64,000 nt of DNA, from positions 1,364,001 through 1,428,000 of the forward strand of contig NZ_CP071848.1 in NCBI RefSeq assembly GCF_023716565.1. The letters are read 5' to 3'. The notes below the pieces were generated by a model. The model searched no databases. It saw only the letters and a list, made by a program, of their open reading frames with translations, and had not been told where the DNA came from. Numbering within the stretch: the first letter of the stretch is position 1; every line of letters begins with the position of its first letter. A program made the translations under genes and the position numbers. This DNA comes from Vibrio sp. SCSIO 43136. Lineage in GTDB: Bacteria > Pseudomonadota > Gammaproteobacteria > Enterobacterales > Vibrionaceae. Positions 16,665-25,351 of this stretch are shown here, piece after piece.

Positions 16665-16995
16665 TTGACAGGAAAGTAGGGAAATACACCTTCCCTACTA
16701 AATCATTAAATTGCTATCAAGCTACACTCACTTAGGTTCGCTTTCCGAAAGCGCTTTCGCCTCCGAAACTAACTCTAACCATGCATCCGGCGTCTTGATT
16801 ACATATAGTCTATCGATGATGTACTGGTGGAAGTGATCAGTTACACCCACTGCTCGGTTACCAGTTTTACGGCTGATAAGTACGGTAGAGAACACAATCA
16901 TTGGCTCTTGGTTCTAATCTTGTATTAGCAGTTTCGATAGCGATGGCTTAACCACCCTTTTACGCTAACCTGCTCGTTTGTAACATTGTTGGCTT
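16665..16995 (-). pseudogene. Decayed second copy of the 3' end of the DUF3731 Hsp70 gene
   Basis: The minus strand encodes a fragment closely matching the C-terminus of the Hsp70-like gene at 19604-22405. From 16912 down to 16736, about 42 of 58 residues agree by eye (PMI.F.TVLI.RKTG.RAV...KTPDAWLELVSE..LSESE.K). A tryptophan codon of the intact gene is TAG here (near 16919), and the frame ends early at TGA just after the match. Weaker DNA similarity continues upstream to about 16995. A hairpin at 16675-16699 (AGTAGGGAA/TTCCCTACT) corresponds to the hairpin after the intact gene. It is a non-functional duplicate or a leftover from recombination with a related genome. Confidence 0.8.
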
Positions 16996-19603: not shown

Positions 19604-22405
19604 TTAGTTTTTTACCAAGCTAAGGCCACTTGGCAGTGCATCACCAAACACGCGTTTAGATTCGCTTTCCGACAGCTCCTTGACCTCAGAAACCAACTCT
19701 AACCATGCGTCTGGCGTTTTACTGCTTTTGAGCTTATCGATGATCTGTTGGCGGAAGTCATCATTTACGTCGACTGCTCGGTCACCAGTTTTGCGGCAGA
19801 TAAGTACGGTGGCGAATGCAATCATTGGCTCTTGGTTCCAATCTTGCTCAAGTAGCTTTGGTAACCATTGCTCAACTTGCTCACGTGGGATCACATTATG
19901 TTGGCTGCCGTACATGAGGCTGCGAGAACCCAAACGGCCAAGAGCCCACCAGTGGGCTTGGGCAAACTGGGTTTGATTGCTCGCTTTGTTCATAAACCAA
20001 GTTGCTAGCAGAACTTTATCTTCAACTTCTAGGTGTTCAAGTGAGGCCGCTAGGCGAACCATCGCCTCATAGCCGTTGTCTTGTGCTTCTTGCCATGTAC
20101 CTTTGTTACGAGCTGCGCCCGGATGTAGGTATTTGGCGATATCCGCTAAGATAGTCTCTTGCTGTTCTTGGTTAAGACCGCCTGCGATACGACGCCAGAA
20201 CACCCACCAATCTGTCCAACCTTGGTGGTTTTTAAACTGAATGCCTTGCTGGTATAGGCTCCAAACTTGCTCGATACGCCAGTTATCAGTCGCATCACCA
20301 AATCCTGGACGCAATGAGAAGCCTGCTAGACGTAACCAGTTCTTTTCATGGTGCTCAGAGCGGCGACGGCGCTTGCGGCCTAGCGCAAAAGTGTCGAATA
20401 GGGAGCGCAGGGTAGAAGAGTCCCAAGCATCTCGCTTGCCAAGGTTTTTCTCTAGTGTCTTGGCGAGCGTCTTGATCGCTTTCTCGTCTTTGTTTTGCTT
20501 GCTACCGCTGTAAAGCGACGTGATAAGCGTCTTGCAGCTTTCCAGTTTCGGGTTGGCTTGTTTCTCTTCTAGCTCTTCGGCTTGTTGATTACGAACCTCA
20601 AATTCCAACGCCCAACGTTTATTGTCATCATCGGCTTGTACACATTCGATCTTTAGCGTGCCGACTTCCGTGAGTTGGCACGCAAGCTGTACTTCCACAC
20701 GCTCTTTTTGGTTAGCTTGCAGCTCTTTGCCTTCGCTCTCTAGGGTGGTGATATAAGGCGGCAGTGGTGCAAACATATCTGGATCGATATCGAGCATCAC
20801 ACCGTTTTGAATGGTGACGCCTTGTGGTGATTGGTCGTGGGTAGAGGTGAGCAAGCTGAACTTCACCGGCTGGCCTAACGTAAGGTTGAAGCGACGCCCT
20901 GACAGACGGATCTCTTGGCCCTCTTCGGTACCTTTCGCCAACAGGCAAAGCGCATTGCCTCGCTTGTTTTTCTCTTGCAGATGCAGGAAGTAGGAGCGAG
21001 CGGCACCACCACCAATCTTCAATTGTGCACCACGGCGAGCCTTACCAAAGGCAACGGCGCCAAGGGCAACGGAATGATCGGGATGTGGGTTATCTAGCAG
21101 CGTGATCGGGCCACCACGCCAGTTTTCTAGCAGTTTGGTGATACGCTCGGTGACGAGTTCACTGTTAAACACACCACCGTTGAGTAGCAGGCCAACAGGG
21201 ATTGCAGGATCAGAGTCATCTTTTAGGGCTGCTTTAGATACCTGCTGGTGGTGATGCAGGAACTCTGCAAGGTGTTTACTTACCGCAGGATCTGATACGT
21301 AAGGCAGACCAAACTCAACCACCGCACTGCGGCGTTTGTCTGGTACTTGGTCAAACTCAGAGATTGGGAAGAAGCCATCAAGGGCAATCTGATGAACTTC
21401 CTCTTTGCTCAGAGAAACACTGCGGGTACCACCAAGTAGCTTTGAACCACTACCTAGCATGGTGATCTTTACATCTTCCGGTGCATTGGAAGAGAGTAGG
21501 TCCTCTTTCGCTTGGCGAGTTTGCTGGATAAGCTTAGTTAATGCGGCTGCGTTGAGTTTTTTACTGTTGCTAAAACGCTGCTCTGCAAGGTGCGCTAGGG
21601 CAAGGTCGAGGTTGTCACCACCCAGCATTAGGTGATCGCCAACACCGATACGAGCCAGTGCTAGTTGATCCTTTTCATATTTGGCTTCAATCAAACTAAG
21701 GTCAGTCGTACCTCCGCCCACATCACAAACAAGTACCAGAGGTAAAGATTCTAGTTGCTGTGCTGCCGTCTCTTGGTGGCGAGCGTACCAGTCATAACAA
21801 ACCGCTTGTGGCTCTTCGAGCAATACGATCTTGTGTAGGCCCGCTAGCTTGGCTGCATCCAGAGTGAGCTTACGCGCCGTCTCATCAAATGATGCTGGTA
21901 CGGTCACAACCACTTCTTGGTTTTCAAGACGATCGCTTGGGTTGCGATAGTTCCACGCAAGACGGATATGGTTTAGGTAGCTTGCACTGGCGATGACAGG
22001 AGAGACACGCTCAACATCGGCAGCTGCTGCCCAAGGCAAGATCTCTGAGTTACGATCAACCGCTTGGTGAGATAGCCAGCTTTTAGCACTCGATACTTGG
22101 CGACCTTCGACTTTCGCACCTAACTCACGAGCCCATTCACCGATGATCACTTGAGGTAAGTCCCCTTCGACGGCTTCATGTTGCCATGGAAGCGTCAGAT
22201 CGTTTTCACTTACCTGACCATTAGCGGGGTGGTAACGAAAAGAGGGGAGTAGTGGTTTACGCACCACTTCACCTGCACCAATCAGTTGGTCTATTTCGAA
22301 GAGGTGAATTGGGGCTTGTTGCAGCTCTTGGCTTATTTCGCAATAAGCAACAACAGTATTGGTAGTACCGAGGTCAATACCAACCAAAAAACGGGGAGTG
22401 GACAT
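19604..22405 (-). CDS. Atypical Hsp70-family protein with long C-terminal DUF3731-like region
   Basis: A 933-residue DnaK-related protein. The N-terminal actin-like ATPase keeps phosphate-1 (VGIDLGTTNTVVAY), phosphate-2 (LVLVCDVGGGTTDLSL) and the adenosine region (GLLLNGGVFNSELV). It lacks a standard DnaK substrate lid. After about residue 500 there is a short beta-rich region and then a long helical, Trp-rich C-terminus (DUF3731 type, SLRPGFGDATDNWRIEQVW). The ATG at 22405 has AGGAG six bases upstream. It is the last gene of an operon with a second Hsp70 and a membrane-anchored DUF2760 protein. Substrate and cochaperones are unknown; no J-domain or GrpE gene is nearby. Confidence 0.85.
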   Translation of the reverse strand: MSTPRFLVGIDLGTTNTVVAYCEISQELQQAPIHLFEIDQLIGAGEVVRKPLLPSFRYHPANGQVSENDLTLPWQHEAVEGDLPQVIIGEWARELGAKVEGRQVSSAKSWLSHQAVDRNSEILPWAAAADVERVSPVIASASYLNHIRLAWNYRNPSDRLENQEVVVTVPASFDETARKLTLDAAKLAGLHKIVLLEEPQAVCYDWYARHQETAAQQLESLPLVLVCDVGGGTTDLSLIEAKYEKDQLALARIGVGDHLMLGGDNLDLALAHLAEQRFSNSKKLNAAALTKLIQQTRQAKEDLLSSNAPEDVKITMLGSGSKLLGGTRSVSLSKEEVHQIALDGFFPISEFDQVPDKRRSAVVEFGLPYVSDPAVSKHLAEFLHHHQQVSKAALKDDSDPAIPVGLLLNGGVFNSELVTERITKLLENWRGGPITLLDNPHPDHSVALGAVAFGKARRGAQLKIGGGAARSYFLHLQEKNKRGNALCLLAKGTEEGQEIRLSGRRFNLTLGQPVKFSLLTSTHDQSPQGVTIQNGVMLDIDPDMFAPLPPYITTLESEGKELQANQKERVEVQLACQLTEVGTLKIECVQADDDNKRWALEFEVRNQQAEELEEKQANPKLESCKTLITSLYSGSKQNKDEKAIKTLAKTLEKNLGKRDAWDSSTLRSLFDTFALGRKRRRRSEHHEKNWLRLAGFSLRPGFGDATDNWRIEQVWSLYQQGIQFKNHQGWTDWWVFWRRIAGGLNQEQQETILADIAKYLHPGAARNKGTWQEAQDNGYEAMVRLAASLEHLEVEDKVLLATWFMNKASNQTQFAQAHWWALGRLGSRSLMYGSQHNVIPREQVEQWLPKLLEQDWNQEPMIAFATVLICRKTGDRAVDVNDDFRQQIIDKLKSSKTPDAWLELVSEVKELSESESKRVFGDALPSGLSLVKN

Positions 22406-22488
22406 CAATAACTCCTGTTAAAACGGCACCCGCGATCGAAGATCAGGGGTGCCGTGATGTTTACTTTATTAAGCGAGAGCTATTAGCC

Positions 22489-24444
22489 TTAGTGGCTTTC
22501 TTGTTGCTCTGGCTGTTGGCTTGTTTCTTCGCCTTGTTCGTCACGAACATCAAACTCGACATGCCACTTTTGACCATTGTCAGCAGCGATAGCTTCCAAG
22601 TATAGCGTGCCTAGCTCGGTAACACGTGAGGCAAGCGTCACAGGAACGACTTCGCCTTCACGACGACCTTCGGAAACTGGCAAAGTTACCTGAATTTCAG
22701 GCAGCTCTTCTAGCTCTTCTGGTGCCCAGTGATCTAGGTGCACACCGGCTTCATCGTCACGACGAATGGTTGAACCGAAGAACTGGAAGTTGACTGGTTG
22801 GCCGATGATCAAACCAAACTCTTGGCTTGGTACGGCAGCACCAGTACCTTCTTCCATACCAAATGGAGCGACACACAGTGCTTCCATTGGAGGAGCCATA
22901 CCCGGAATCGCAGGCATAGCACTCTCGATACCTACGTAGTAAGCCGAAGCGATACCACCACGGATACGAACGCCTTGACCACGACGAACTGAGCCGTAGT
23001 AAGCCGCACCGCTAGCAACTGCTAGGTCTAGATCTAGGCCAGATAGGCGTTTAGCTTCTTCACTACCAGCGGTGGTTAGCCATTGGTTGATGGTGCTAAA
23101 TAGACGTTCAGATAGAAGCTGAGACTTAAGCACACCACCGTTAAATAGAATCGCTGTCGGCTTGATGAAATCTGCTGATTGCTCAGCGCCTGGCATACCC
23201 GGCATGTTGGCAAATGGGTCAAAGCCCGCATCCGTTGCTTGTTCGCCGCCTTGAGCATTGGCTTGCTTAGCAAGGAAAGCAGCAATATGACGAGTGATGC
23301 CCGCATCTTGAGCGTATGGCAGACCCATTTGAGTCAGTGCACCACGGTTACGCTGAACAGGGTGATCAGTAATCGCCACTTGTGGGAAGAAACCATCTAC
23401 AAGTGTTTGCTGAACTTCTTGCTGAGTTAGTTCAGTTTTCAGCGTTGCACCAAGTAGCTTAGAGCCACGGCTTGGTACGACGATTGGCATAGATTCAAGC
23501 TCTGCATCATTTAGAAGGGCTTCTTTTGCATCACGACATGCGTGAGTCATCGCCTGAACCTGCCATGGTTGAAGCTCTTTGCCATCTTGAGCAAGCTTCA
23601 TCTTAAGGCGGTACGCCAGCGCGAGATCCATGTTATCACCGCCAAGCAGGATATGCTCGCCAACGGCAATACGGTTTAGGGTTAGGTTACCGTCATCTTC
23701 GGTGACTTCGACCAGTGAAAGGTCAGTCGTACCACCACCGATATCAACTACCAGTACAATGTCACCCACGTTAACTTCATCACGCCAAGCGTCTGAGCTG
23801 TTATCAATCCAGCTGTATAGCGCAGCTTGTGGCTCTTCTAGCAGGGTTAGGTGCTCAAAGCCCACGTGACGAGCAGCTTCTGCGGTAAGGTCGCGAGCGG
23901 CTGGATCAAAAGATGCTGGTACGGTAATGGTTACGTCTTGCTCCGCAAGTGGGTGCTCAGGGTGCTTGTGATCCCATGCTTGCTTAAGGTGCTCTAGGTA
24001 TAGCTCAGTTGCACGCAGTGGCGATACCTTACTCACTTCTTCTGGGCTACCTGCAGGTAGGAACGCATCACGACGGTTTACGCCGCCGTGACATAGCCAA
24101 GATTTAGCACTAGCGATTAGACGAATTGGTGTTTTAGAGCCTAGGTTACGAGCGATTGCGCCCACAAGCGCTGTTGGTTCAGTGGTCCAAGGCAGCACTC
24201 GTGATGCTGGGCTCATCTCATGTTCGTGTGGCTGGTATAGGAAAGAGCCAAGCTGAGTGCGCTCTTCTACCGTGCCCGGAGCGGTTAGCTGCGGGATAGC
24301 CATCACTTCTACGCTGGCTTCTTCATTAGTCGTATCAAGAAACGACATAACGCAGTGCGTGGTACCAAGGTCGATACCTACGCTGAATTTAGGGGTTTGC
24401 TTCTCAGTAACCTGCTCGGTTACTTGGTCAGTCATCTGTTCCAT
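22489..24444 (-). CDS. Atypical Hsp70-family protein
   Basis: A 651-residue DnaK-related ATPase. Motifs: SVGIDLGTTHCVMSFLD near residue 22, DIVLVVDIGGGTTDLSLVEV, LLGGDNMDLALAYRLK and AILFNGGVLKSQLLSERL. The C-terminal part after about residue 530 is a reduced beta domain (GLIIGQPVNFQFFGS), with no long helical lid. Its ATG overlaps the stop of the DUF2760 gene by one base (TAATG), and the next Hsp70 gene follows after about 80 nt, so the three are an operon. The short acidic, Gln-rich tail ends in EEQTSQQPEQQ-like sequence. It may work with the larger Hsp70 and the membrane protein as one unit; that is inference from gene order. Confidence 0.86.
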   Translation of the reverse strand: MEQMTDQVTEQVTEKQTPKFSVGIDLGTTHCVMSFLDTTNEEASVEVMAIPQLTAPGTVEERTQLGSFLYQPHEHEMSPASRVLPWTTEPTALVGAIARNLGSKTPIRLIASAKSWLCHGGVNRRDAFLPAGSPEEVSKVSPLRATELYLEHLKQAWDHKHPEHPLAEQDVTITVPASFDPAARDLTAEAARHVGFEHLTLLEEPQAALYSWIDNSSDAWRDEVNVGDIVLVVDIGGGTTDLSLVEVTEDDGNLTLNRIAVGEHILLGGDNMDLALAYRLKMKLAQDGKELQPWQVQAMTHACRDAKEALLNDAELESMPIVVPSRGSKLLGATLKTELTQQEVQQTLVDGFFPQVAITDHPVQRNRGALTQMGLPYAQDAGITRHIAAFLAKQANAQGGEQATDAGFDPFANMPGMPGAEQSADFIKPTAILFNGGVLKSQLLSERLFSTINQWLTTAGSEEAKRLSGLDLDLAVASGAAYYGSVRRGQGVRIRGGIASAYYVGIESAMPAIPGMAPPMEALCVAPFGMEEGTGAAVPSQEFGLIIGQPVNFQFFGSTIRRDDEAGVHLDHWAPEELEELPEIQVTLPVSEGRREGEVVPVTLASRVTELGTLYLEAIAADNGQKWHVEFDVRDEQGEETSQQPEQQESH

Positions 24445-25070
24445 TACAGTTCTACCTCTGCTGGAGCGATGATGCTAGCGTCGTAATCTTCAGCAAGTTT
24501 TGGCAGTTTGATTTCGTCAGCTTTCCAGCCTTTGTGAACCAAAGTACCGTGGAAAGGCGCATTGCCTGTTACGTTACCTGTTAGGCGAACCTGCTGTGGG
24601 TTGAAGCCTTCTTCTACCGTGATACGAGTCTCTTCATCTTCGCTGCGAACAGGAGTTAGGGTTAGGTACTCTTTAAGTACTTTCTGGCCGCCAGTGTGGA
24701 TAACACGAGCCGCTGCGCCAACTTCTTCGTCCGCAAAATGGGTTAGGTCTTCTTGTAGGAAGTCGATCAGACGTGCTTCTTTTTGCATGATAGAAAGCAA
24801 CTGCATTGCAGAGTCAGTAGAAGCGGTTGCTAGTTTAGACTCTACCTCAACGATTTTCTCGACTTGTTTCTCGACAATCTTTTCAACTTCTACGATCTTC
24901 TCGACCGGCTTTTCTACTTCAACAATTTTCTCTACTGGCTTCTCTACCACTTTCTCAATCACTTTAGATTTACGAGAAACGGCTAGAATAAGAAGCAGAA
25001 CGCTTGATGCCGCTAGGCCTGTGTGCAGCATGTCAAACGTGGTAGGAATCATGTTTATGTCAAAGTTCAT
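24444..25070 (-). CDS. DUF2760 membrane-anchored protein with VEK repeats
   Basis: A 208-residue protein. One hydrophobic helix (about residues 14-31) is followed by a linker of near-identical Val-Glu-Lys-Pro/Ile units (37-77), then a soluble C-terminal DUF2760-like domain (HFADEEVGAAARVIH, VRLTGNVTGNAPFHGTLVHKGW). The linker is probably an extended or coiled stalk holding the domain away from the inner membrane. It is the first gene of the operon and is translationally coupled to the Hsp70 that follows. The ATG at 25070 begins the compact protein; longer in-frame starts lack support. The function is not known, but pairing with Hsp70s suggests a membrane adaptor. Confidence 0.82.
   Translation of the reverse strand: MNFDINMIPTTFDMLHTGLAASSVLLLILAVSRKSKVIEKVVEKPVEKIVEVEKPVEKIVEVEKIVEKQVEKIVEVESKLATASTDSAMQLLSIMQKEARLIDFLQEDLTHFADEEVGAAARVIHTGGQKVLKEYLTLTPVRSEDEETRITVEEGFNPQQVRLTGNVTGNAPFHGTLVHKGWKADEIKLPKLAEDYDASIIAPAEVEL
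24840..24962 (-). repeat. Short in-frame repeat coding for VEK(P/I)VEKIVE units
   Basis: About 120 nt of imperfect 30- to 33-nt direct repeats inside the DUF2760 gene encode residues 37-77, alternating VEKPVEKIVE and VEKIVEKQVE. Such runs expand and contract by slippage or recombination, so the stalk length may differ among strains. Confidence 0.85.
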
Positions 25071-25351
25071 AAATGTAATCTCTAGTTTGTTATGTCTTTC
25101 TTCAATGAAGACATGTCCGGATAAGGCGGAAATATGGGCGAACTTTATCATATTCAAGGGAGTAGGCATGAAGATTAATTGACGTTTCCCTGTCATTTCA
25201 GTGTCGTTAGCTGAAAAAACATCCTCATCTGGTGGTTTAGTCGACGGCTAGAGCGCTCATCAGGCATTTATTGAGCAATCGAAGGGTCATGGGTTTAGCT
25301 TCAAAGCGGGGTAAGGTAAAATGCGCCAAATTTCGAATTTTAAGGTTGGTG

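Follow-up and report, generated by a model that had tools for sequence, protein, structure and literature searches.

A conserved, little-studied locus in Vibrio combining two divergent Hsp70s with a putatively membrane-tethered DUF2760 protein

The well-known Hsp70s rely on J-proteins and, for the most part, on exchange factors as well. In Escherichia coli K-12, the gene of the Hsp70 HscC lies in a neighbourhood that reads djlB, ybeT, ybeU, djlC, hscC, and DjlB and DjlC are membrane-anchored. In eukaryotes, Hsp110:Hsp70 (Sse1) and Ssz1/Zuotin bring together two diverged Hsp70 paralogues, one of them without the usual lid. Here we describe a bacterial locus of three genes, D, A and B, found in 64,000 nucleotides of Vibrio sp. 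SCSIO 43136 (NZ_CP071848.1, positions 1,364,001 to 1,428,000; hereafter the window). The locus is a real, conserved and little-studied chaperone module, and its likely role is that of a stress-linked Hsp70 pair which is recruited to the membrane and works without DnaJ and GrpE.

An ORF check of the window returned D, A and B on the minus strand, exactly where the first-pass annotation had placed two Hsp70s and a DUF2760 protein, and Pfam matches bear this description out, PF10816 (185 bits) and PF12531 (334 bits) both passing the gathering score of 25. D and A overlap by a single base, while A and B are separated by 80 nt containing a hairpin (Table 1). Starting D at a conserved ATG yields a length matching the 200-212 aa of most orthologues among the matches listed; for B, an ATG at 22405 is a likelier start than the listed TTG at 22408. 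Judged by this locus, the closest relatives among the matches listed are Vibrio. The genome (two contigs, 4.97 Mb) holds six HSP70 matches, namely A, B, the two strongest, which are taken for DnaK and HscA, and a shorter pair (347 and 450 aa). It further holds six J-domain matches and one GrpE; tblastn with these seven found no match in the window, which upholds the earlier remark that no J-protein or GrpE is encoded nearby. Some 2.7 kb from gene B, at 16724-16952 on the minus strand, we noted a decayed copy of its 3' end (80% identical DNA over ~200 nt, 70% identity to B residues 845-918, in-frame stops), apparently the relic of another copy.

Table 1. Features of the D-A-B locus, in window coordinates.
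Feature	Position	Strand	Basis
Gene D, DUF2760 protein with predicted membrane tether, 208 aa	24444..25070	-	conserved ATG; PF10816 185 bits
Gene A, lidless Hsp70, 651 aa	22489..24444	-	PF00012 63 bits; 47-sequence alignment
Gene B, Hsp70 carrying DUF3731 towards its C-terminus, 933-934 aa	19604..22408	-	PF00012 69 bits; PF12531 334 bits
Predicted transmembrane helix of D, residues 14-32	24975..25031	-	KD 1.91, charges; helix in AlphaFold model
VEK-repeat linker of D, ~residues 36-84	24819..24965	-	tandem repeat, period 30
DUF2760 domain of D, residues 85-208, helices then strands	24447..24818	-	pLDDT 10-residue means 80-97 from residue 81
SBD-beta-like region close to the C-terminus of A	22537..22977	-	alignment to SBD-beta of B
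SBD-beta of B, ~residues 465-603	20600..21016	-	fold of model
Helical C-terminal region of B, residues 607-921	19646..20590	-	AlphaFold model, Pfam
Sigma32-like element CTTGAA-N14-CCCATAT, nested imperfect extended -10	25132..25158	-	61 nt before D start
Hairpin and short T tract in A-B gap, possible attenuator	22420..22454	-	sequence, fold

Across genomes the three genes behave as a constant unit. In a survey of the phylum (299 genomes), DUF3731 occurred in 21 genomes and DUF2760 in 22, with 21 common to both; in a survey of the class (369 genomes), the figures were 14, 13 and 13, two genomes (G000 and G082) having been drawn in both. Each survey's single mismatch coincides with a contig end, before B in G026 and within A in G462. 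The neighbourhood, on whose conservation the first-pass annotation had made its proposal depend, is indeed conserved: the order D-A-B on one strand was found in 19 of 20 regions from the phylum survey, G026 being the remaining one (of the 22 genomes, the window itself and G053, with two genes on different contigs, were left out), and in 76 of the 80 named loci that ranked best among at least 491 confirmed. Three of the other four lie on cut contigs, and the last is a Comamonas exception (L133; L148-L149) in which B lies ~18 kb downstream of A on the same strand, as if by insertion; in G082, 2.9 kb separate A from B. In 11 of the 13 class genomes with both DUFs, these share a contig and a strand; in G487 and G587 they are on different contigs. 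All seven same-genus genomes listed in the phylum survey, our own included, have the unit in place, and the matches listed for D include a DUF2760 orthologue in the laboratory species V. natriegens. The gap between D and A has a median of -1 nt across 65 Vibrionaceae loci and of -4 nt across 30 from elsewhere, whereas that between A and B has a median of 77 nt in Vibrionaceae versus 6 nt in other clades. A survey of neighbourhoods for a constant partner had been suggested; no constant extra neighbour was seen across clades in the 20 regions and the window, ORFs being called crudely. In two Vibrio assemblies (L090 and L092) the match to A is split in pieces, as is that to B in L092, as from frame breaks or sequencing errors.

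On plasmids, D matches were found in 11 of 72,556 records, and four of the five inspected carry the trio. The fifth, from Thiodictyon (L144), has D-A and no B within 14.4 kb, which counts against a constant trio; its neighbours include proteins annotated as anti-phage, VapC and TIR. Two Bradyrhizobium plasmids typed as conjugative (L142 and L143) carry the trio, in one case near trb genes and in the other followed by groES-groEL. An IMG/VR scan returned no relative of the unit.

By their sequences, A and B are old paralogues. Residues D8, T11, K70, E171, D194, T199, D201 and K270, which we take to be the ATP-binding and catalytic residues of the Hsp70 nucleotide-binding domain (NBD), are invariant in 47/47 A and 52/52 B sequences. 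A beta-type substrate-binding domain (SBD-beta) follows the NBD in both proteins, by fold in B and by alignment to B in A. The helical lid (SBD-alpha) is absent from A, which stops shortly past SBD-beta. In its position, B is predicted to have ~315 mostly helical residues, a stretch longer than a lid whose placement implies no relation to it; DUF3731 proper covers residues 684-931. The substrate domains had been described beforehand as reduced or replaced, which is apt for the lid, lost in A and replaced in B, but not for the beta domain, kept in both. The AlphaFold model of B (mean pLDDT 84.7, pTM 0.63) aligns with ATP-open Hsp70 forms. Against the NCBIfam models for DnaK, HscA and YegD (PRK11678, which we take to be YegD), B scores 66.5, 90.5 and 27.7 bits and A 55.1, 78.8 and 33.8 bits, below the respective cut-offs of 648, 620 and 331.

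The two Hsp70s differ from DnaK, HscA and HscC at the site where J-proteins dock. These three retain R167 and N170, both of which are missing from A and B of the window; 99/99 sequences (47 A and 52 B) have E at the N170 site, and R167 is found in 2/47 A and 13/52 B. The LLLD-type linker pattern, sought in the sequences in which the linker could be located (42/47 A and 47/52 B), had no match in A and two in B, both positioned after the linker. Such losses are compatible with J-protein contact of another sort. In 5/100 loci, all Photobacterium (L102, L103, L104, L110 and L122), a C2:860770-type J-domain gene lies ~3-6 kb upstream of D. D itself has no HPD motif and no PF00226 (J domain) among its Pfam matches.

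The N-terminus of D takes three unlike membrane-type forms across clades. In the window and in L037-L042 a single helix comes with the VEK repeat; L043-L050 and their relatives have a FLSRIAIAIGSFFAILG-like helix; and a pair of helices is seen in L051-L056, all from one genus. In a hydropathy scan of 101 D proteins, 84 reached KD 1.6, eight fell at 1.2-1.6 and nine lower, although the scored segment missed a helix otherwise seen in L043 and L046. An amphipathic helix is a tentative reading of some of these N-termini; by hydrophobic moment, the VEK linker is as high as the candidate helices, and the two are not separated. Net charge around the helix in the window is -2 before and +2 after, and in the Vibrio sequences displayed -1 or -2 before and +2 after; because of this bias, the DUF2760 domain is predicted to be cytoplasmic. 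The domain has 24 invariant columns in 35 aligned sequences and is confidently modelled, yet a fold search found no confident relative. The VEK linker is modelled at low confidence (pLDDT <50 at residues 36-77). Of the anchor, repeat stalk and DUF2760 domain which the first-pass annotation had described in D, the first is predicted and the other two are present in the window, but the VEK stalk is one clade's version and other clades carry other linkers. The broader idea of a dedicated, membrane-positioned chaperone machine is partly supported, by the constant gene set and by an N-terminal membrane element that differs among clades and is nonetheless retained.

Upstream of D, a promoter may be read in two ways. 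The sigma32-like element has four exact matches in the genome, against one for a reversed control. Another of these (G000:C1:2166141-2166168) lies 266 nt before an ORF which is presumably trigger factor, and the genome's own dnaK has GTTGAA-N15-CCCCATTT upstream. A sigma32-like score of at least 11 of 13 was reached by 41/69 Vibrionaceae D upstream regions versus 6/425 other ORFs of the same loci, counts that draw on related rather than independent sequences; this control is fairer than a mononucleotide shuffle, in which 35/2,020 reached 11. The signal is weak in many Photobacterium loci, and outside the Vibrionaceae 2/32 D genes scored 11. Nested in the element, an extended -10 anchor occurs in 62/69 Vibrionaceae regions, and TGNTANNAT in 55/69 (a count without control). 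Among 43 distinct promoter strings, one T outside the anchored and the scored positions is invariant; the strings were picked partly by their CTTGAA/CCCCA match, and counts in those columns are not independent evidence. Both the sigma70 and the sigma32 reading of this putative promoter stand.

Between A and B, the gap in the window folds at -28.1 kcal/mol, its hairpin being followed by only 4 T, and did not pass the terminator scan. A terminator-like hairpin was found here in 59/65 Vibrionaceae (shuffles 9/325) versus 3/30 outside the family (shuffles 5/150). Given this hairpin, and the tight packing of A and B elsewhere, Vibrionaceae may produce B in smaller amounts.

Our literature search found no paper naming DUF2760, DUF3731 or their Pfam numbers. 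By annotation, VC1373-1375 are the probable Vibrio cholerae counterpart of the unit, and traces of these genes may be found in the available sections of four papers. HapR acts as an activator of the VC1375 promoter, both in vivo and, with the housekeeping polymerase, in vitro (PMC10328515). In a ribD mutant, VC1373 shifts by log2 -1.04, alongside ibpA (-1.74) and htpX (-1.07) (PMC5816637). VC1374 appears on a biofilm-repressed list (PMC9201469), and a vc1639 comparison gives it log2 -2.68 (PMC5636140). The function of the unit is not a subject of those sections. Upstream of the window's D there is no clear HapR site, its 13 of 22 being the commonest score across the 69 regions, and HapR control is therefore claimed for V. 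cholerae only. Further afield, the available sections of a study of Photobacterium damselae at 37 C report a 7.3-fold fall of a YegD-named gene and a 6.4-fold rise of a second DnaK on chromosome II, neither matched up with A or B (PMC7396505), and a DnaK-related protein, likewise not matched up, is listed in a differential-expression table for Thiodictyon syntrophicum (PMC6413534). Two apparent leads were set aside: "VC1374" in PMC9608740 is a strain name rather than the gene, and a carbonylated peptide of a P. angustum DnaK-related protein (PMC3706606) is absent from the six Photobacterium loci checked.

We give roughly even chances to the proposal that the locus is a self-contained, stress-linked inner-membrane Hsp70 unit, in which D serves as anchor and dock for ATP-cycling A and B, activated in-house. 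D would be held in the inner membrane by one helix in Vibrio, and by two helices or an amphipathic helix in other clades, and its sequence and charge bias suggest that it presents the DUF2760 domain to the cytoplasm on a flexible linker. Constant linkage and invariance point to this domain as the dock of A and/or B, both of which appear to be ATP-cycling Hsp70s with a substrate-binding beta domain. Because A and B have neither the J-docking residues nor the linker of the DnaK/HscA/HscC type, ATPase stimulation and nucleotide exchange are probably provided in-house, perhaps by D, by mutual action of A and B in the manner of Hsp110:Hsp70, or by both. The helical region of B may stand in for the lid and is probably where clients or partners are held. 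Vibrionaceae would make the unit under stress, as the promoter elements suggest, and at high cell density, as HapR activation of the probable V. cholerae counterpart suggests. A possible but doubtful extension is a membrane-anchored system wholly free of J-proteins and GrpE, with A and B driving each other's nucleotide cycle, DUF2760 as activator as well as anchor, and DUF3731 as a new Hsp70 lid. A conserved unit in which the ATPase residues are intact and those for J docking are missing would, if true, mean that an Hsp70 can be operated in a different fashion, at the membrane moreover. Any function established for D-A-B would also be the first for the DUF2760 and DUF3731 families, named in no paper of the literature searched.

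Three other explanations merit consideration. A and B may be ordinary client-binding Hsp70s which borrow DnaJ-family proteins and GrpE from elsewhere, with D merely a membrane anchor. The helpers exist in the genome (six J-domain matches and one GrpE), and the ATPase residues and SBD-beta are kept in both proteins, but we consider the idea unlikely in view of R167, N170 and the LLLD linker of DnaK, HscA and HscC, kept in neither. The lidless A, the divergent linker and the activation of the probable V. cholerae promoter by a quorum regulator, as described in the available sections of PMC10328515, would also suit actin-fold ATPase switches at the membrane, controlling, for example, an envelope complex via D rather than folding proteins. 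The presence of SBD-beta, the alignment of the B model with ATP-open Hsp70 forms and the sigma32-like element before D make such switches improbable. An anti-phage or mobile-element function, to which the patchy distribution in genome surveys and the plasmid copies (that of Thiodictyon lying among genes annotated as anti-phage) might point, we regard as very improbable indeed: PADLOC returned weak NBD similarity of A and B to one candidate family and nothing more, the IMG/VR scan held no relative, the unit is present in all seven same-genus genomes listed, own included, and on one Bradyrhizobium plasmid it adjoins groES-groEL.

The proposed membrane-recruited pair may finally be set beside the systems introduced above. 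With DnaK-DnaJ-GrpE it shares the fold of the Hsp70 NBD and SBD-beta, but the unit contains no J or GrpE gene and its DnaK-model scores (66.5 bits for B, 55.1 for A) compare with a cut-off of 648. E. coli HscC, with DjlB and DjlC, is similarly a specialised bacterial Hsp70 with partner genes nearby; its partners, however, are J-domain proteins, whereas D has neither an HPD motif nor a J-domain match, and HscC keeps R167, N170 and an LTD-type linker which A and B do not, matching DnaK at 259 bits versus 42 for A and 52 for B. In Hsp110:Hsp70 and Ssz1/Zuotin, diverged paralogues likewise occur together and one lacks the usual lid; Sse1/Hsp110 entries fell within the general Hsp70 fold matches and did not rank above them. 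Unlike those pairs, the present unit, known here from its genes, is bacterial, has a membrane protein as neighbour and carries DUF3731 in place of a lid.
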